Assembly (NCBI GenBank): GCA_024398055.1
Contig: CP073749.1
Location: forward strand, 930,001-994,000
Direction: 5' to 3'
Source: a bacterium SCSIO 12741
GTDB lineage: Bacteria; Bacteroidota; Bacteroidia; Flavobacteriales_G; Salibacteraceae
Length of the DNA stretch: 64,000 nt
Position numbers and translations under genes: made by a program. Shown one piece after another: positions 43,767-52,465 of this stretch (its first letter is position 1; each line of letters begins with the position of its first letter). Under the pieces are notes generated by a model, which saw only the letters and a program-made list of their open reading frames with translations, ran no database searches and was not told where the DNA came from.

Positions 43767-44987
43767 TTATTGTGTTCCTCCCTTTATGGATTCTTTCAAC
43801 TGATCGTCTTCAAATCGCTGGCGACCTAATTCAACCCCATTATCGGAGTAAACTATAGCCCAGCCTTCTCTTCGGGCTTGCTTAAAATGAGTCACCGCTT
43901 GCAAGTTTCCAGAAGGATAAAAGCTTTTCCACTCCCCTTCTTTGAGGTCGTCGAGGTAAGATCCTTTTTTACGCAAGGTTCCATCCGGGTAATAAAACTC
44001 CCACTCACCCTGGGCCCATCCTTTTTTGTAAAGTCCCTTGTGCTTTAAACTGCCGTCGTGGAAATATACTTTCCATTCACCCGAGTATTCACCATCGAGG
44101 TAAATTCCTTCCGATTGAAGCTGGCCATTGGAGAACCAGGTCTCCCATCGACCCGATTTTTTTCCTTGATCGTAGACGCCTTGCCTCCAAAGTATTTGTT
44201 GACCGTTGTAGGCGGTTGTATCTTTTGTGGAACCAAAATATTTTTTGAAAATGCCTACCTGTACGTTGTCCTTGTATTGGCTTTCCACCATCAAATTACC
44301 GTTCGGATAGTAACCGCGAAAATCCCCGTCTAACATTCCATCTACATAGGTACATTCCTTTTGGAGTGCACCCGGCTTAAAATCTTTGTAATAGGATTTA
44401 AATGGCCCTGAGTATTTCCCTTCTTTTCGCGATCCCTCCGACCGGATATATCCGTTCCGGTACCAGGTCTTAAAAGGACCATGTTCGAGATCCTTTAGAA
44501 AGTACTTTTCATACAGCATAACGCCTTCATCGGAAAACCCTTGGGCCATGCCGTTGAGTTCGCCTTTGTTGTACGTGCTCATTTCCATGATCTGACCATT
44601 GGGGTAATAAGAGGTTACAACCCCATGAACCACATCCCCGATGTAGGGAATCTCCTTTTTCAAAGCTCCGTCTTCGTAGTAGATCTCAACAGGTCCTTCG
44701 AGAAAACCATCCGCAAAAAAGAGCGTTTGTCTTACTTGACCATTTTCATGGTACAAAATCCACATTCCCGTATTCTTTCCACGGTTGTAGCTTCCCTCCT
44801 GCTCCAGCTTTCCATCTGGATAGTAGCGGGAATACTTACCGTGGCGAACGTTTCCGGTATCCACCTTTTGAATTCCAAATACTTCCTTAAAGCCCTGTTT
44901 ATCAACCAGGGAATCCGTTTGAGCCTTTACTTGAAAGGCAAAAAGAAGCGCTATGATCAAACAACCAATAGGTCGAAACAATGCCAT
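43767..44987 (-). CDS. Secreted MORN-type repeat protein
   Basis: Encodes 406 residues: signal peptide (residues 1-22), a short linker, and about fourteen tandem units of roughly 23 residues with the pattern G-x-W/F-x-x-Y-[YF]-x-[DN]-G-x-L-x-x-x-x-x-Y-x-x-G (such as GEWEFYYPDGTLRKKGSY). Databases often name such proteins YwqK-family antitoxin or MORN-2; that name does not fit a secreted repeat array of this kind. MORN repeats often bind lipid or other surfaces. The TMTC-like protein at 38285-40729 has the same repeats at its C terminus. It starts five bases after the chaperone-like gene stops. Confidence 0.82.
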   Translation of the reverse strand: MALFRPIGCLIIALLFAFQVKAQTDSLVDKQGFKEVFGIQKVDTGNVRHGKYSRYYPDGKLEQEGSYNRGKNTGMWILYHENGQVRQTLFFADGFLEGPVEIYYEDGALKKEIPYIGDVVHGVVTSYYPNGQIMEMSTYNKGELNGMAQGFSDEGVMLYEKYFLKDLEHGPFKTWYRNGYIRSEGSRKEGKYSGPFKSYYKDFKPGALQKECTYVDGMLDGDFRGYYPNGNLMVESQYKDNVQVGIFKKYFGSTKDTTAYNGQQILWRQGVYDQGKKSGRWETWFSNGQLQSEGIYLDGEYSGEWKVYFHDGSLKHKGLYKKGWAQGEWEFYYPDGTLRKKGSYLDDLKEGEWKSFYPSGNLQAVTHFKQARREGWAIVYSDNGVELGRQRFEDDQLKESIKGGTQ

Positions 44988-44992
44988 CGAAT

Positions 44993-45793
44993 CTATTTTA
45001 CGGTAAGAGGAACCTGAGTTGCTTCAATAGGCTGTCGGTGCCCGTAGTTAAACAGAGCAGCCAGAGCGTAGTTGCCCGGAGAAAGTTGCGTGGGCAATAC
45101 CAGTTTTACCTTTAAAGGGTGTCCTGGATATACAGTAATCTTTTTAGGCTGATACTTTTCTTCCACCGCCGTTTCGATGTTGGCCAAGGCCAGGCTAAGC
45201 TCGCCTTCTACAATTTTGTCACCCGTATTTTCAACGGTTACTTCAAATACCCGAAACCCGTTGAATTTCTCATCCAGTTCGTGCAAGTCAAAAACCCGGG
45301 ATTTGTAGTTGTTATTGGATTTAGGAGATTGCTTCACCAAAATGGCAATTCTGGGTAACACGATCACACCCGCAGCGGTCTTGTCCTTATCAATAGGATC
45401 TACCCCTTCTTTTTCACGGGATTGAACATGAATCATTCCCCAGCGGGTTTGAAAATTGTTTTGAGGAACCGTTATAATAACGTCAAAAGTTGCTGATTCA
45501 TTAGGATTCAGATCTAAATATCCGGGGTTAATCGTCATCCAGGAAGACAAGCTTCGTTCCGAGGTACCAACCTCCATGGAGTACTTTCCTCCCTTTTCGT
45601 TTACTCCGTAGTCAGCCATTTTAAAAACGAAACGCTGAGGTTCGTTGGCATGATTGGTAATGGTAACCTTTTTGGTTTCGATATTACCAGGCTCAACCTG
45701 ATAACTCATAACAACTGGAGCAACTTCAAAATCCTGGGCGCTCAATCCTGTATATAGAAGTGCAGCGAACAAGGTGGTGAGTAGATGTTTCAT
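44993..45793 (-). CDS. PapD/DUF916-like two-domain periplasmic protein
   Basis: Encodes 266 residues from the ATG at 45793, preferred over the ATG at 45814 because it begins the signal peptide directly (MKHLLTTLFAALLYTGLSAQ). Two Ig-like domains follow: residues 20-140 (VTITNHANEPQRFVFK, LNPNESATFDVIITVP) and 145-266 (VFEVTVENTGDKIVEGEL). The pattern resembles periplasmic pilus chaperones (PapD type) and also DUF916/DUF3324 surface proteins of Gram-positive bacteria; sequence alone does not decide. It heads the minus-strand operon and diverges from the secreted-protein/barrel genes starting at 46051. Confidence 0.78.
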   Translation of the reverse strand: MKHLLTTLFAALLYTGLSAQDFEVAPVVMSYQVEPGNIETKKVTITNHANEPQRFVFKMADYGVNEKGGKYSMEVGTSERSLSSWMTINPGYLDLNPNESATFDVIITVPQNNFQTRWGMIHVQSREKEGVDPIDKDKTAAGVIVLPRIAILVKQSPKSNNNYKSRVFDLHELDEKFNGFRVFEVTVENTGDKIVEGELSLALANIETAVEEKYQPKKITVYPGHPLKVKLVLPTQLSPGNYALAALFNYGHRQPIEATQVPLTVK

Positions 45794-46050
45794 ATTGGGC
45801 GAATTAATTTTCAAAGTAGAGCTTTATACGCCGAAGTTTAATTTGGGTTTTGGTCAATTTTCTAACAAAGATGCCTTAAAAATCATAACCCCTTGCTGAC
45901 AAGGTTATTAACAACCGATTTTTAACAGTTTCATCGATCAAATTCATATGGGCAGACGAAAAAAAACTTCTTTGGTCCTAACTTTTTTGTTTGCCCCCCG
46001 TACAAGGGGTCATCAATAATCGAAATTGTTAAACTACTAAAACACAAAAA
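45794..46050. promoter_or_regulatory. Divergent intergenic region between the chaperone-like and secreted-protein operons
   Basis: 257 bases, AT-rich, with no open frame. It must carry promoters for both directions. I found no full TAnnTTTG match; TAACTTTT at 45979-45986 is a near match for the plus strand, and CTACTTTG on the minus strand has an extra base. A C-run and G-run at 45994-46009 could form a small hairpin in the 5' leader of the plus-strand gene, but the stem is short. Confidence 0.5.
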
Positions 46051-46713
46051 ATGAAAAAATTCGGAACGTTGCTTGCCGCCTTTGCTCTCTTCAGTGCCAC
46101 GGCCAATGCTCAAGCTGTTTCAGATCGTGATGTTGTACCCATTGCCGTTAACCTGAACCAGATTTTGCGTCTGGATATTCTGGATGGTGGTAACGTAGAA
46201 TTTACGTTCTCAACTATTGAGCAGTATGAAAGTGGAATTGATAATGATGATGAGTACAACACTCGTTTTTCAGTATCATCTTCCTCGGATTGGGAAGTAA
46301 GAATGGGATCAGAGGACGCGACTTTCATTGGAGTGGACGATAACACCCACACAATCGAACTAAACAATGTTGGTTACACTTTGGAAATTACAGGTAACCA
46401 CGTATTAGGAACAGAGTTGTTGACTGAAATGACAACATCTACTACTTCCTGGGACTCATCTAACGACGTTGAAGCCTTGTTGCAATACTCAACTGGTATG
46501 AACCGTCTTTTGTTCCGTCACACTGATACATCTAACGACTCAAACGCTGGCGATGAAGCAGATAACGACTTCACCATTCACTGGAGATGTGGTACTACTG
46601 AAGCTTCAAACAACGCGAACGACGATATGAATACACAGTCACTCATCGATCAGGGTAATGCCGCTGACCGTTACGTGACGAACGTGATCTTTGAGCTGAA
46701 CGCTTCTAATTAA
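46051..46713 (+). CDS. Small secreted protein, candidate fibre subunit 1
   Basis: Encodes 220 residues with a signal peptide ending ATANAQ. The mature protein is rich in Ser, Thr, Asn and Asp, mainly beta-strand, with a single late cysteine in the FTIHWRCG motif. The stretch DGGNVEFTFSTIEQYESGI and the C-terminal VTNVIFELNAS match segments of the next gene, so the two are homologous. I do not recognise a named family. The position opposite a chaperone-like gene and before a large outer-membrane barrel suggests an exported subunit; this is inference. A strong terminator follows 20 bases after the stop. Confidence 0.75.
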   Translation: MKKFGTLLAAFALFSATANAQAVSDRDVVPIAVNLNQILRLDILDGGNVEFTFSTIEQYESGIDNDDEYNTRFSVSSSSDWEVRMGSEDATFIGVDDNTHTIELNNVGYTLEITGNHVLGTELLTEMTTSTTSWDSSNDVEALLQYSTGMNRLLFRHTDTSNDSNAGDEADNDFTIHWRCGTTEASNNANDDMNTQSLIDQGNAADRYVTNVIFELNASN

Positions 46714-46733: not shown

Positions 46734-46761
46734 AAAAAATGGCCCTAGTGGCCATTTTTTT
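46734..46761 (+). terminator. Strong rho-independent terminator
   Basis: ATGGCC (46739-46744) pairs with GGCCAT (46750-46755) around a CTAGT loop, flanked by an A-run on the left and seven T bases on the right, so the stem extends into A-T pairs. It separates the first secreted-protein gene from the second and the barrel gene. A structure like this ends or attenuates transcription, which would make the first product more abundant. Confidence 0.85.
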
Positions 46762-46793: not shown

Positions 46794-47387
46794 TTGTTCC
46801 TGAGAGTAGCATTATTATTATTATTTGCCCTTGCCGGCTGCTTGCAATCTGTCGCCCAGGAATGGAATTATGCCCGGGTCTCTATTGTTAATGGAGGTCG
46901 GGTGCCCTTTAACTTCAATTCCCTGAACAAATTGAAAAACGGGATAACCCTCACTGACTACACCGTAATCGGAATCACCATGGTTGACAGCAACCAGGTT
47001 GGTCACGATCTAACGGGATTTGAATTGCAGTTTCGTGCCTTTAATGGCGCCACGCAAATCACAGGTGAGAACCCACTCAATTTTTTACCACTCAGCGAAA
47101 TCGAAGTTGAAGCCAGCGACAACGGAATAGGAACGGCTCCCGGAGTAATCATTTTTAATGACGGACTCGGAGGACCTCAGGAATTGGATCAGGTGTTTAA
47201 GAATTGTGTAGAATACACCGAAGCGGCGGCCTTAGGCGCGCCGGTTTTTAACAGTCTGGACGCGGCATCTCACCAGATTAATATCAGTTACCGTTGTGGG
47301 GACGGCGGTAGCCTGTTGGGAATGCCTGCAGACTATTACAGTGTTGAAATTGAATTCCAGCTTATCCCTACAGGGCCTGGATTCTAA
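46794..47387 (+). CDS. Small secreted protein, candidate fibre subunit 2
   Basis: Encodes 197 residues starting with TTG at 46794; no ATG is available before the hydrophobic signal peptide (residues 1-21, ending SVAQ). It is related to the product of 46051-46713: NGGRVPFNFNSLNKLKNGI aligns with DGGNVEFTFSTIEQYESGI, INISYRCG with FTIHWRCG, and VEIEFQLIP with VIFELN near the C terminus. It also has an earlier cysteine (KNCVEY), so a disulfide is possible here but not in subunit 1. The barrel gene begins 15 bases later, indicating one transcript. Confidence 0.72.
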   Translation: MFLRVALLLLFALAGCLQSVAQEWNYARVSIVNGGRVPFNFNSLNKLKNGITLTDYTVIGITMVDSNQVGHDLTGFELQFRAFNGATQITGENPLNFLPLSEIEVEASDNGIGTAPGVIIFNDGLGGPQELDQVFKNCVEYTEAAALGAPVFNSLDAASHQINISYRCGDGGSLLGMPADYYSVEIEFQLIPTGPGF

Positions 47388-47402: not shown

Positions 47403-50400
47403 GTGGGAACCATTAGGTCAATCATTTGGAGCGGCCTCTTGCTATTTAGCCTTGCCGCCCATGCCCAGGTTACCGAGCCCGATTCTACGGGTATCGCAGG
47501 AGACTCCTTGGCTTTGGATTCTCTGGGTGATGGCTTGAGCCTGCAAGAAAAACTGGATCAACTCAATCCAGATGGCGATCTGTCGATTGCCTTTATGAGA
47601 CCTAATCAATCTCACTCTCCCGATTCTTCCTACTTCAATATTGTCAAGATTGACAACAACACGGGAAGCCCCATTTCCGGAAAGGTTAAAATCATAGGCC
47701 CTGACAACTGGAACATCGTATACAGTATATCAGGATCTACGACAGTTCAGCCTGGACAACCTCTCTATATCCCCTTCCGAATATCCCTTCCCGCAGAAAC
47801 TTACGGAGGCCTGAGTTATATTCTCAACGCCTATTTTGAATTGGACGACAAGAAATATACCGGTATCGATTTCGTTCGTACCCCGGTTAAGTCCAACTGG
47901 AAATTGATCATGGACAAAGGGTTGGCTTACCAAACCAAAACGGATGAGTTTACCCCCATGCAGTTCAAGTTGAAGAACGATGGAAACACCACGGAACTTA
48001 TTCGGGTGCAGCTGGAAATCGGGAAACTTCTTAAGGTAAGCGGATTCAACAAAGACCTCAATTTCAAATACATTGAAATTCCTCCGCAAACAGACACTAC
48101 CATTACCTGGTATGTGATGCCCAACACCGACATGGACCCGGATTTGGCCGACCGCTACAAGAATAGCTGGAAAGCCACCTCGATCAATTTGGAAGTGGGC
48201 AACACCGAAAAGAAAGAATACCGAAGTTTCCGTGTAATAGCCTTGGAAAGTGAGTATACCAATGAGCGTCCTACGAGCAAATTCCCCTTAAACATCAGCG
48301 GTCGTTTTTCGAACCTGATTTTTGTCAAAAGACCTCGGCTGCGCCTGAATGTGTGGGGCACCGTTGAGCTAAAACGTCAACGAGAATTGTACTACCGCTT
48401 CTACAGTATTTGGAATTTCAATAAGCTGGATCAGTGGAACTACAACCAAAATGCCTTTTTGTACTTGGTTTACCGTTCACCAAAACTCACCTTGACTTAC
48501 GGCGATCGTTTGAATACGGGTAAGCTACACTCGGTGAATGGTCGAGGAATAAACGCTTACTACAAGCTTCTCAAAAACCACCACATTGAAGCCGGATATG
48601 TAAGCTATCCGTTAGCGCCCATTCAAGGGTTTTCGGCTTTTTACAACGGTTTTTACAAAAATGGAATCACCGCCCGTGCCGGGATTATTTTGGAGACCAA
48701 CGAGGTATTCCGCTACAATGCGCAGTCGCTGCAATTGGGTGGTAAATTGAGGGTATTGAAGTACAACCACGTATTCCTGGATGTGTTGTTCACCCAAGCG
48801 GACTTCAACAACATGAATACTTTCCCGGGAATCAACACCAGCCAATCGGATACATCCGTTCTGGGTTATGCCTACAACCTGGGCTATGCGTTTGGGTTTA
48901 GAAAATTCAGTTTCTCAATCAACAACCTAAATCACACCAACAACTACATTATGAATAGTGGCTCCAATCAAATTCGGATTCGGAGTATGTACAAGTTCAC
49001 CAAAAAGGTGCTGCTGGAGCTCAACTACAACCTCAGACGCCAAAACCAAACCCGGTATCCCCTGCGATTCTTCCGACCAACGGATTACTACAACTACGAC
49101 TATGGATTGCTAACCATTCAAATGCCTTTAGGGGACCGAACGATCAGCCGAATTGGACCTTCTTATGTGGGATCGGTGAACAATCGCTACAATACGCTCA
49201 GACAAACCGAGACCCGCAACTCCTTATACAACCCGGGTATTTATGGATTGATGCGTTACCGTCTGGATGAATTTAAATCGGTATCTCTGAATTTTAATGC
49301 CGGTGCCTATCAGGTTCAAGTAGCCTCGAACGATACTTTATTTCCCAATTGGACTTCCAACTGGGAGCCTACTTACCGTGTTGGGATAAACTATTATGGA
49401 AAGCACCTGCGAGTTTTGGCCTATTACTCCAAGAATCCAACTTTCCGTCTGGTATACGATCCATTGGCTGATGAGCCCTATGACTTATCCCCGAATCAGA
49501 TTATTCAGATTCGTCCGGCCTACCAGCGTTTCTTCTTCAACAACTTTATTAAGCTGACGACCTACCTCAACTACATGTACATGCTCCCAGCACGACGGGT
49601 GGCCACCGGCGTTTATTTACGCGGAGATTTGTACCTACCGAATTACTGGTCGTTTAACGCTGCTGCCAACTGGCAAAGCACCAGCTGGAACCGGGAAGGA
49701 AGCGGAACCGTTACCACCAATGGTTTGACCATGTTGTTTGGATTTAAGAAATCATTTGACTGGCAGCAACCTCGAATGAAGTACTACGACATCGACGTGG
49801 TATGTTTTAAAGATGTGAACGGAAATGGAATGAAGGATGAAAACGAAAACGTTTTGCCGAACATTCTGATTCACTTTGAAAGAAACACCGAGATTCCGGA
49901 TGTAGACAAGGTCTACTTTGCCAGCAAAGATCTTTGTACCAGTCCTGAGGGCATGGTGGAATACAACAAAATTGCCGAAGGAACTTATGACATTTCCATC
50001 ATCCCCATGGAAAATTTGCAGGACATTTTCCCTCGCTATGGCAACGAACAAAAAATAATTATCACCTCAAACACCACGTATTACATTCCTTTTATCGAGT
50101 CCTTCAAATCGGTTGGGAAGGTTATGGTAGAACGTGATGAGAACTTCAGTAATCACGACAACCTGGAGCTTAAAGGAATAAAGATTACCGCCACCAACAG
50201 CAACAACGAAGAGTTTGCCACCTTTACCGATGACTATGGAAACTACACCTTAACGATTCCTCAATCGGGCGTTTTCCAGGTGAAATGCCACAACACCCTG
50301 GGCCCTGATTTTGAAATTGAAAACGACGAGTACATCATCGACTTTAGTCAAAATGCGGTGTACAACATCGACTTTGTTTTCAAGGAGAAAGACCGTGGCA

Positions 50401-51593
50401 TCAATACGTCAGGAAATCAGGTATACCAGTTTAAATCATTTGGTGCCGGCAATGACGAACCCAAAGCTGAACCTGAAAAGACTCAGGATCCAGCAGCAGG
50501 CAGTGGCGGTGGTGTAAGCCCCGAACTGGAAAAACTGATCAAAGACCAGCAGGAGTTGATTCAGGCCTTGTCTGATCGATTGAAAAACTTAGAAGAAAAA
50601 ACAGCTCAACAACAGAGCGCACCGGCTCAGGTAGCTGCTCCAAATGCCTTCCAAAACGGACGTAGACAAACCGATATTCCGGACAACATCCTAAATGAGG
50701 AAACCGAATTTGATCCACAAAAACTCGGCTACCGGGTTGACCTGGGTGAGTTTACCAATGACGTTCCTGCGGACATTCTTAATAAGCTCATTCGCCTGGG
50801 ATACAAAGAAGACAATGAACCTATTGATGGCAAGGTGCGCTACCTGTCAGAAAAGTTCCGTCAACTACCAAATGCTGAAAGCTACCGGGATGATATGATT
50901 GATGAAGGATTTAAGGATCCAGATCCAAAAATTGTTGCGGACTACGACGGCAAAATCATTTCACTGGAAGAAGCTGAACGACTTAAGCGTCAGGATGAAG
51001 AAAGAAGACGTCAGCAAGCCGAACAGCGTCGTGCTCAACAGGCCCGCTCCAATGCCACTCCTGCCCAGGCAACACAAGCTCCTGCAACAACGAATAACCA
51101 AACCACCGATGGTGAATCGCTGGAATCATTGGCCGACATGAGCGACTACGAAGACTTGAATAACTTGATTGACGAGTTAATCGATCAAAATGAAGGACCA
51201 CAGGAAATTGACAATCGCCAGGAATTTGATCAGGTAGATGACTTGATCGATGACTTGTTATTGAAAACCAATCCTGATGCACCTAACAACGGCATTGAAT
51301 CCATAGATAAGAAGAAGATCTCCTATCGCCTTGAGCTGGGTGTATTTGAAGCTAACTTGAACCCGGATCAATTAAAGAAATTGGAAGAACTGGGTTACGT
51401 TTCAAAAGGTGCATCCAAAAACGATCCACCAGTAGCCTTCTTGTCCAATACCTTCTCTGATATCAGCCTTGCTGAGAAGTATCAAAAAGAATTGGAAGCA
51501 GCCGGATTTGGTAAACCAAGAATCGTTGGAGATTATGATGGTGTATTGATTACGGTAAAAGAAGCCCAGATGCTTATCAACGCAGGTAATTAG
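47403..51593 (+). CDS. Usher-like outer-membrane barrel with Ig-like, SdrD-B and two SPOR-like domains
   Basis: Encodes 1396 residues from a GTG at 47403. Signal peptide (to AAHAQ); Ig-like domains (about 50-290); a large barrel (about 291-784) with LTYGDRLNTG and NGRGINAYYK near residue 366, reminiscent of the GD-x-x-T...RG motif of pilus ushers; an SdrD-B-like module (about 798, FKDVNGNGMKDENENVLPN); a carboxypeptidase-regulatory-like module (about 920); coiled coil (about 1038-1075); and two SPOR-like domains (1108-1190 and 1306-1396), each starting Y-R-[VL]-[DE]-L-G-x-F. SPOR domains bind peptidoglycan, so the protein may link outer membrane and cell wall. The whole architecture is not one I recognise. 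The usher reading is inference. Confidence 0.75.
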   Translation: MGTIRSIIWSGLLLFSLAAHAQVTEPDSTGIAGDSLALDSLGDGLSLQEKLDQLNPDGDLSIAFMRPNQSHSPDSSYFNIVKIDNNTGSPISGKVKIIGPDNWNIVYSISGSTTVQPGQPLYIPFRISLPAETYGGLSYILNAYFELDDKKYTGIDFVRTPVKSNWKLIMDKGLAYQTKTDEFTPMQFKLKNDGNTTELIRVQLEIGKLLKVSGFNKDLNFKYIEIPPQTDTTITWYVMPNTDMDPDLADRYKNSWKATSINLEVGNTEKKEYRSFRVIALESEYTNERPTSKFPLNISGRFSNLIFVKRPRLRLNVWGTVELKRQRELYYRFYSIWNFNKLDQWNYNQNAFLYLVYRSPKLTLTYGDRLNTGKLHSVNGRGINAYYKLLKNHHIEAGYVSYPLAPIQGFSAFYNGFYKNGITARAGIILETNEVFRYNAQSLQLGGKLRVLKYNHVFLDVLFTQADFNNMNTFPGINTSQSDTSVLGYAYNLGYAFGFRKFSFSINNLNHTNNYIMNSGSNQIRIRSMYKFTKKVLLELNYNLRRQNQTRYPLRFFRPTDYYNYDYGLLTIQMPLGDRTISRIGPSYVGSVNNRYNTLRQTETRNSLYNPGIYGLMRYRLDEFKSVSLNFNAGAYQVQVASNDTLFPNWTSNWEPTYRVGINYYGKHLRVLAYYSKNPTFRLVYDPLADEPYDLSPNQIIQIRPAYQRFFFNNFIKLTTYLNYMYMLPARRVATGVYLRGDLYLPNYWSFNAAANWQSTSWNREGSGTVTTNGLTMLFGFKKSFDWQQPRMKYYDIDVVCFKDVNGNGMKDENENVLPNILIHFERNTEIPDVDKVYFASKDLCTSPEGMVEYNKIAEGTYDISIIPMENLQDIFPRYGNEQKIIITSNTTYYIPFIESFKSVGKVMVERDENFSNHDNLELKGIKITATNSNNEEFATFTDDYGNYTLTIPQSGVFQVKCHNTLGPDFEIENDEYIIDFSQNAVYNIDFVFKEKDRGINTSGNQVYQFKSFGAGNDEPKAEPEKTQDPAAGSGGGVSPELEKLIKDQQELIQALSDRLKNLEEKTAQQQSAPAQVAAPNAFQNGRRQTDIPDNILNEETEFDPQKLGYRVDLGEFTNDVPADILNKLIRLGYKEDNEPIDGKVRYLSEKFRQLPNAESYRDDMIDEGFKDPDPKIVADYDGKIISLEEAERLKRQDEERRRQQAEQRRAQQARSNATPAQATQAPATTNNQTTDGESLESLADMSDYEDLNNLIDELIDQNEGPQEIDNRQEFDQVDDLIDDLLLKTNPDAPNNGIESIDKKKISYRLELGVFEANLNPDQLKKLEELGYVSKGASKNDPPVAFLSNTFSDISLAEKYQKELEAAGFGKPRIVGDYDGVLITVKEAQMLINAGN

Positions 51594-51679: not shown

Positions 51680-52465
51680 TTGAAAACGAACCTACTTCTC
51701 TTAGCCCTACTAACCCTGGGCTGTTTATACCTGCATGGTCAGAATCCTTACGGATATCAGGGACATCGCCTGTATCTTCAGTACAATTTTGGCGCATCTG
51801 TAAACCTGATTGGAAACAAACCCGAAAATCCAACTGCCCTACCCTATCTAAACCGATTTCACGATTTGTCGCTCAACTATTGCCTCAATCGCCATTGGGT
51901 GGCAGGCATCCACGGCATGTATAGCCGAGATGTGGCCGACATCGAATACACCAGTGCCCATATTTTTGACTCAAGAAAAACTTATACCCCTTTTCGAACT
52001 ACCGAGGTAGGCATTCAATTTTACCGATTCATCAATGATTTAAATGCGCCACTTGGCACCTATTTGAATGTAGGCTTGGGCATGGCGATTACTGAATTGG
52101 ACGGAACAGTAAGAGCAAGCGTCATCACCGAAGCGGCCAATTGGTGGAACAGTACTCATCAGGAGACCGTTTTTTCCTACACCCAAACTCGTCCTTACCT
52201 CTCTCCCATGCTGCGCCTTGGAATAGGCACCCAGCATTTGATTGGGAACCACCTTATGATTAACGTAGCCGGTCAACTAGGGCTCAACCTGGCCTGGATT
52301 CACGAAAGACGAGTGGCCACTGATATATTCTCTGATGACAACATCGATAGTTCAGAAATGACATCAAACGAGGATTTAGAATCATTAACCAAAAGCGCTA
52401 CTCAATCTCGTATTTCCTTTAAAAACTTCTACCATTTCCGACTGGGCATAGGGTATTTGTTCTAA
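51680..52465 (+). CDS. Outer-membrane barrel protein, PYGYKGK family, member 3
   Basis: Encodes 261 residues from TTG at 51680 (no ATG precedes the signal peptide). Mature start QNPYGYQGHRLYLQYNFGAS, motif LNAPLGTYLNVGLGMAITEL, and C-terminal SFKNFYHFRLGIGYLF are shared with the products at 34082-34927 and 34931-35758. It lies 86 bases after the usher-like gene in the same orientation. Function unknown; membership in the same family as two genes on the other side of the fibre-like cluster is the main clue. Confidence 0.8.
   Translation: MKTNLLLLALLTLGCLYLHGQNPYGYQGHRLYLQYNFGASVNLIGNKPENPTALPYLNRFHDLSLNYCLNRHWVAGIHGMYSRDVADIEYTSAHIFDSRKTYTPFRTTEVGIQFYRFINDLNAPLGTYLNVGLGMAITELDGTVRASVITEAANWWNSTHQETVFSYTQTRPYLSPMLRLGIGTQHLIGNHLMINVAGQLGLNLAWIHERRVATDIFSDDNIDSSEMTSNEDLESLTKSATQSRISFKNFYHFRLGIGYLF

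Follow-up and report, generated by a model that had tools for sequence, protein, structure and literature searches.

A usher-like protein with two C-terminal SPOR-type domains in a chaperone-usher-like gene cluster of the Bacteroidota bacterium SCSIO 12741

The window analysed here is a stretch of 64,000 nt from bacterium SCSIO 12741 (GCA_024398055.1, contig CP073749.1, positions 930,001-994,000, forward strand), and it contains a conserved gene cluster whose last member encodes a protein of 1396 amino acids (aa). This protein is present as a single copy in the genome (one contig, 5.1 Mb) and begins with an apparent signal peptide ending AHA-Q. It combines N-terminal immunoglobulin (Ig)-type domains, a presumed outer-membrane barrel and a tail of two SPOR-type domains, and is encoded beside a chaperone-like protein and two secreted subunits. 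The features of the locus and of the 1396-aa protein, in window coordinates, are as follows.

43767..44987, minus strand: MORN_2-repeat protein beside the chaperone gene, possible accessory
44993..45814, minus strand: periplasmic chaperone-like protein, PapD/WxLIP-like, two Ig-type domains, 273 aa, divergent from the subunit genes
46051..46713, plus strand: major subunit sub1, secreted, C-terminal strand motif, upstream of sub2
46734..46760, plus strand: terminator-like hairpin after the sub1 gene, fold z -4.33
46794..47387, plus strand: minor subunit sub2, secreted, C-terminal strand motif, upstream of the barrel gene
47403..51593, plus strand: usher-like outer-membrane protein with two C-terminal SPOR-type domains, one open frame, GTG start, 1396 aa
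47580..48257, plus strand: two N-terminal Ig-type domains, residues 60-285, chaperone-like by profile
48270..49757, plus strand: presumed transmembrane beta-barrel, residues 290-785, from amphipathic-strand density
49770..50411, plus strand: two beta-sandwich modules C-terminal of the barrel, SdrD_B / CarboxypepD_reg-like, residues 790-1003
50520..50606, plus strand: heptad-like segment, probable short coiled coil, residues ~1040-1068, from sequence inspection only
50712..50990, plus strand: SPOR-type domain 1, Asp at the Gln position, beta3 Arg present
51306..51590, plus strand: SPOR-type domain 2, Glu at the Gln position, beta3 Arg replaced by Ala

The two copies of the tail are 35% identical over ~100 aa and match each other by BLAST with an E-value of 6e-13 in a small database, and so the repeats are not due to chance. 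An earlier note on this DNA had identified them from their opening and closing motifs, and these are present (YRVDLGEF and YRLELGVF at the start, DYDG[K/V] and EA at the end), but the copies start at residues 1110 and 1308, two residues later than it had placed them. In NCBIfam and Pfam scans of the 1396-aa protein, neither the tail nor the barrel matched above cut-off; the Pfam SPOR profile PF05036 gave no direct match to the protein at E<=1 and none to copy 1 alone, and a PDB sequence search with the protein by itself returned one chance row. Homology to SPOR domains was instead found through the relatives. Residues ~1100-1196 match the C-terminal ends of other proteins in related genomes (frames of ~690-840 aa), two of which were scanned with Pfam and contain SPOR at 4.9e-16 and 2.6e-11, and 5 of 16 usher-type tails match PF05036 directly, the best at 4.3e-8. 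A profile of these 16 tails matches CwlC (E 2.4e-4) and FtsN (E 0.34) in the PDB, and hhalign aligns the two window copies to 35 SPOR copies of other proteins at 99.4% and E 1e-21, as a one-to-one comparison, against 0.2% for the reversed profile. An AlphaFold model of copy 1, for which copy 2 was the sole other row, reached a mean predicted local distance difference test (pLDDT) score of 84.7 and is arranged as beta, alpha, beta, alpha, beta, followed by a short strand and a final helix. VIA-align placed the SPOR domain of RlpA in the top row for this model (Z 6.7, root-mean-square deviation 2.4 over 70 residues) and also listed the SPOR domains of CwlC, DamX and DedD, while Foldseek returned no match at E<=0.001. 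A Z below 8 is weak if taken alone, and it is the combination of the VIA-align match with the sequence evidence that settles the fold: the tail copies are SPOR-type domains by homology and, from the model of copy 1, by fold. The earlier proposal of two C-terminal SPOR domains is therefore upheld, although the Pfam profile is silent on the window protein and recognises the SPOR proteins of the lineage to which it matches.

The chaperone-like protein belongs to a family of which 13 members were profiled. Aligned by hhalign to ten chaperone-usher chaperones of E. coli K-12, the family scores 96.9% (E 1.6e-10) over 212 columns spanning both domains, with a score of 75.8 against at most 15.0 (0.0-0.2%) for ten column shuffles and one reversal. 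The two Ig-type domains are collinear with those of PapD-type chaperones, and the profiles point to membership of the PapD-like superfamily. PapD_N (PF00345) matches one of the 13 members at E 0.01, with one more distant relative at E 0.021, below the cut-off. WxLIP_PGBD (PF06030) matches seven at E<=1, the best at 2.8e-10 and the window member at 9.4e-4, below the cut-off; fn3_5 matches nine, and the structure of EfmWxLIP1 matches the family across both domains (E 0.003). Synaptotagmin rows were set aside as chance given that they cover ~50 residues, though some outscore the WxLIP rows. By inspection, the chaperones end inside the second domain and no C-terminal transmembrane helix, a trait of WxLIP proteins, was seen. 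When the plasmid collection was searched with the chaperone, it yielded only four rows, all distant and from Streptomyces, of DUF916 type. The N-terminus of the 1396-aa protein is itself related to this family: residues 60-285 match the chaperone profile at 96.1% (E 3.6e-9, score 65.8, against at most 15.8 for ten shuffles and one reversal), whereas the same 225 residues have no match to the E. coli chaperones (10.2%). It is through this match to its neighbour that the Ig-like domains proposed earlier find their support.

Both secreted subunits end in an aromatic-led alternating strand motif that is present in 62 of 63 subunit candidates and in 39 of 403 other open reading frames, counts that are descriptive and not a test, as the motif was written after the sequences had been viewed and the profiles that retrieved the subunits themselves cover this end. 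The motif is similar to the strand with which chaperone-usher subunits end. Folding placed a strong hairpin behind the major subunit gene both in the window and in six of eight relatives, the two misses (L036 and L038) being short stretches cut by the chosen start codon; a hairpin pattern scan on its own does no better than chance (9 found, 9.5 expected). Fimbrial operons usually have a leaky terminator behind the gene for the major pilin. In most of the relatives fetched the barrel gene has the same neighbours, and the chaperone, sub1-type, sub2-type and barrel genes are all visible in 11 of 13 relative loci (L035-L047, each with a long barrel frame, one of which runs off its contig), the exceptions being L041, whose contig stretch shows no chaperone, and L047, with no clear sub2. 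Similar clusters with rearranged gene order are present in several families of the class, and more distant loci possess tandem sub1 copies, a chaperone and a barrel, some with an additional protein of 457-478 aa with a similar end. Two to five closely similar major-subunit genes lie in tandem at L121, L122 and L127 and might serve variation or dosage. A MORN_2-like gene adjoins the chaperone gene in L036-L040 as well. Directly behind the usher-like gene, positions 51680-52465 (plus strand) encode a 261-aa protein with a signal-like N-terminus, which matches nothing in Pfam at E<=1 and has no homologue in the other clusters fetched.

In the middle region of the 1396-aa protein, residues 290-785, amphipathic-strand peaks number 2.93 per 100 aa across 27 family members, or 1.80 times the shuffled value, on a home-made score with one threshold. 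The barrels of E. coli ushers give 2.51 peaks per 100 aa, or 1.84 times shuffled, and the flanking domains of both groups give 0.89-1.30 times shuffled. The region is thus presumed to be an outer-membrane barrel. Its C-terminal side would be periplasmic if the barrel is even-stranded, and the N-terminal domains, which follow the signal peptide, would lie on the same side. The SdrD_B-like module named in the earlier note corresponds to a match at residues 801-869, accompanied by a weaker CarboxypepD_reg-like match at 923-961, both below the Pfam cut-offs; its coiled coil corresponds to the heptad-like segment seen by eye. The barrel gene is encoded with chaperone and subunit genes, as ushers are, and the protein is usher-like by context and predicted layout, not a member of PF00577.

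The cluster is best read as a chaperone-usher-like fibre system whose usher-like platform is tethered to peptidoglycan by the SPOR tail, with a probability of about 0.58. The chaperone-like protein would hold the secreted subunits in the periplasm and hand them to the 1396-aa protein, which would form a pore in the outer membrane and have its Ig-type domains on the periplasmic side. At this pore the subunits would be assembled into a fibre in which sub1 predominates and sub2 is less frequent. Beyond the last beta-sandwich, a flexible and partly coiled periplasmic linker would carry the two SPOR-type domains, which most likely tether the platform to peptidoglycan and may either take pulling force or hold the platform at suitable exposed glycan. 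What the analysis establishes is that the tail is SPOR by homology and fold, which genes make up the cluster, that the cluster is conserved and that its chaperone is related to the PapD type; the barrel, its topology, the transfer of subunits, the fibre and the binding to peptidoglycan are inferences.

Several results weigh against this interpretation. PF00577 has no match in the genome at E<=10, with the E. coli control positive, and none of 12 barrel-family members matches it at E<=1. By hhalign, the barrel profile shows no relation to six E. coli K-12 ushers (1.7%) or to EcpC, and against the PDB it returns one chance row (E 0.44). A single-sequence AlphaFold model of residues 20-1003 is meaningless (pLDDT 31.9), and so structure prediction, informative for copy 1, was of no use for the middle region; the large barrel proposed earlier is favoured by strand density, in a region between beta domains, but has no confident model. 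Likewise, the term usher, as applied in the earlier note, is justified by gene context and not by sequence. The subunit profile matches E. coli pilins only in the signal-peptide region, and the columns aligned to Arg8 and Lys112, the anchor residues of PapD, are not basic in the chaperone family, in what is a remote alignment. The absence of usher homology and of a confident barrel model speaks for an alternative in which the 1396-aa protein is some other outer-membrane protein, such as an adhesin or a translocon, clustered by chance with secreted Ig-type proteins. This is quite improbable, given that the gene set recurs in rearranged order in several families of the class, among them loci with tandem subunit copies and a larger protein that is subunit-like and shares the C-terminal motif, and that the chaperone matches PapD-type chaperones.

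The remaining results against a tethered platform concern the tail. In RlpA, denuded glycan is held by Q270, F274 and a basic patch, and many of the contacts are main-chain (PMC6895207). The Q270 column holds Asp in window copy 1 and Glu in copy 2, and the beta3 Arg is kept in copy 1 but is Ala in copy 2, so that neither copy has the RlpA-type site of conserved Gln and basic patch; the conserved Phe is kept in both. Among 16 aligned usher tails the column contains 4 Gln, 4 Asp, 2 Glu, 5 Val and 1 Phe, the Gln being replaced in 12, whereas 14 of the 16 last SPOR copies of PorG-like and PorE-like proteins retain Gln and 2 have Leu, a tally that leaves out duplicates, two shorter proteins with Gln and a fragment from G302 with Glu. 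The Gln signature is gone in the window and its nearest kin and is retained in the usher tails of sister family f57 and in the other SPOR proteins of the window's genome. Since the usual ligand residues are altered, binding is the weakest step of the tethered-platform reading: the earlier note's statement that the tail binds denuded peptidoglycan is doubtful for this protein because the key Gln is replaced. The span from surface to cell wall that it proposed would fit the predicted topology. Four same-cluster relatives of the order (G296-G298 and G325) have no tail, and the tail is therefore not needed for assembly as such.

Both the altered site and the tail-less relatives would also suit a tail that no longer binds glycan and persists on a working usher-like protein as a protein-protein module, for instance toward envelope proteins, or as a drifting relict. 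With its ligand site changed, the tail may have a protein-protein role, yet as a whole this alternative is rather unlikely. The window tail still has the fold, the conserved Phe and the closing DYDG, and it has been duplicated rather than lost; in RlpA the polar contacts with glycan are mostly main-chain, and basic residues vary among SPOR domains (PMC6895207).

The barrel profile matches 23 of 42 genomes of the order, and an SPOR-type tail is present in 17 of these 23 (the window's own genome, G301, G306, G307, G309-G311, G313, G315, G316, G322, G327, G328 and G429-G432), with the gene broken in G328 and split in G431. Besides the four tail-less genomes there are two others, G323, where the frame runs off the contig, and G312, where the gene is broken and the tail unread. 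The barrel genes at L048 and L017, in G328 and G312, are broken by stops or frame changes, which suggests that the system is degenerating in some relatives. In the phylum as a whole, the barrel profile matches 29 of 395 genomes, mostly through the SdrD_B-like module alone, and such matches were not counted as relatives; L005, a leucine-rich protein that shares only this module, was likewise left out of the alignment and later counts. Eleven matches reach E<=2.7e-20, the window protein included; among those from outside the order, the nine whose loci were read (G273, G354, G342, G210, G068, G002, G012, G405 and G358) have no tail, a tally that does not include G095. Viral contigs contained no relative and plasmids no barrel relative. 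As far as sampled, the SPOR tail on a usher-like protein is limited to this order.

On a tree of the barrel core, from which seven rows had been dropped (three fragments and four near-duplicates) and in which G323 was labelled tail-less despite its contig-end frame, the SPOR-bearing barrels do not form one clade and at least two changes are required (approximately unbiased test, p 1.7e-68, for a quick tree with long rows). On a tree of SPOR domains, the usher tails likewise do not form one clade (p 4.9e-6, few columns), and the window tail groups with those of G327 and G322, a weak grouping for so short a domain. A single gain followed by simple inheritance is contradicted by the core tree and by this grouping; a single gain with repeated loss, two separate gains, or exchange would each be compatible with the sequences.

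SPOR domains are also present on other large proteins of the genome, outside the window. A 733-aa protein (L148:5330-7531, minus strand) has an N-terminus like that of PorG of the type IX secretion system (NCBIfam 5e-13, below cut-off), a TSP_3 stretch and C-terminal SPOR copies (Pfam 2.1e-16), and similar proteins are present in many relatives. A second protein, of 2227 aa (L149:4825-11508, minus strand), is related to PorE/CHU_0125 (3.5e-21 and 2e-26, below cut-offs) and ends in three SPOR copies, where PorE has an OmpA domain; similar SPOR ends occur in L051 and L052. The usher tail recurs, it is duplicated in the window, and PorG-like and PorE-like proteins bear SPOR arrays too, which suggests that SPOR modules serve this lineage generally to anchor outer-membrane machines to the wall. 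Where the role of a SPOR protein is known, it lies in cell division or morphogenesis (PMC6895207), and the tail might accordingly be a targeting device that directs fibre assembly to division sites, where denuded glycan is exposed by amidases, and not a mechanical anchor. The altered ligand Gln argues against such targeting, which we regard as unlikely. So do the arrays on PorG-like and PorE-like proteins, which are not known to be division proteins.

The tethered-platform reading combines traits of several known systems. Chaperone-usher pili (FimC/FimD, archaic and alternative) share with the window cluster the small secreted subunits with a C-terminal strand motif, the two-domain PapD-like chaperone, the large outer-membrane protein flanked by beta domains and the hairpin after the major subunit gene. 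The window protein differs in its lack of PF00577, its chaperone-like N-terminal domains, its middle region of ~490 residues with no recognised plug and its SPOR tail, and the aligned anchor residues of PapD are not kept in its chaperone. As in FtsN, DamX, DedD, RlpA and CwlC, the SPOR domains are homologous, similarly folded and C-terminal after a flexible linker, but here they are borne by a barrel-type outer-membrane protein and carry Asp or Glu in place of the ligand Gln. The inverse autotransporter YeeJ, with a periplasmic LysM domain, is another outer-membrane protein of surface adhesion that binds peptidoglycan (PMC5595812). It uses LysM where the window protein has SPOR, and operates without a chaperone or fibre subunits. 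In proteins of the YeeJ type LysM is N-terminal, whereas the SPOR tail here is C-terminal. WxLIP proteins (DUF916-DUF3324) of Gram-positive WxL clusters are predicted to complete the beta-sandwich of a partner with a strand (PMC10599100). The window chaperone resembles them in its family's matches to PF06030 and EfmWxLIP1; it differs in having no C-terminal transmembrane helix and in its partners, which would be secreted subunits and an outer-membrane barrel and not WxL proteins. No paper on Bacteroidota chaperone-usher systems or on ushers with SPOR domains was found in the open-access literature, judged by titles and abstract starts, a weak absence that agrees with the earlier note's claim that ordinary ushers lack such a tail.

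The combination of a usher-like protein with an SPOR tail is a real and conserved feature. A broader proposal, with the odds somewhat against it, is that the cluster represents a separate Bacteroidota lineage of fibre assembly, in which the outer-membrane platform is unrelated in sequence to known ushers, its N-terminal module copies the fold of the chaperone, the chaperone bridges PapD and Gram-positive WxLIP proteins, and the SPOR tail of one order, with its acidic site, reads a feature of the wall other than ordinary denuded glycan. If the tethered-platform reading is true, Bacteroidota would own a chaperone-usher-like pathway beside their FimA/Mfa1-type fimbriae, and a usher-like pore could be fastened directly to the cell wall. 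It would then become testable how force on a pilus reaches the envelope, whether SPOR domains have found uses other than in division, and whether a common origin links PapD chaperones with the WxLIP proteins of Gram-positive bacteria.

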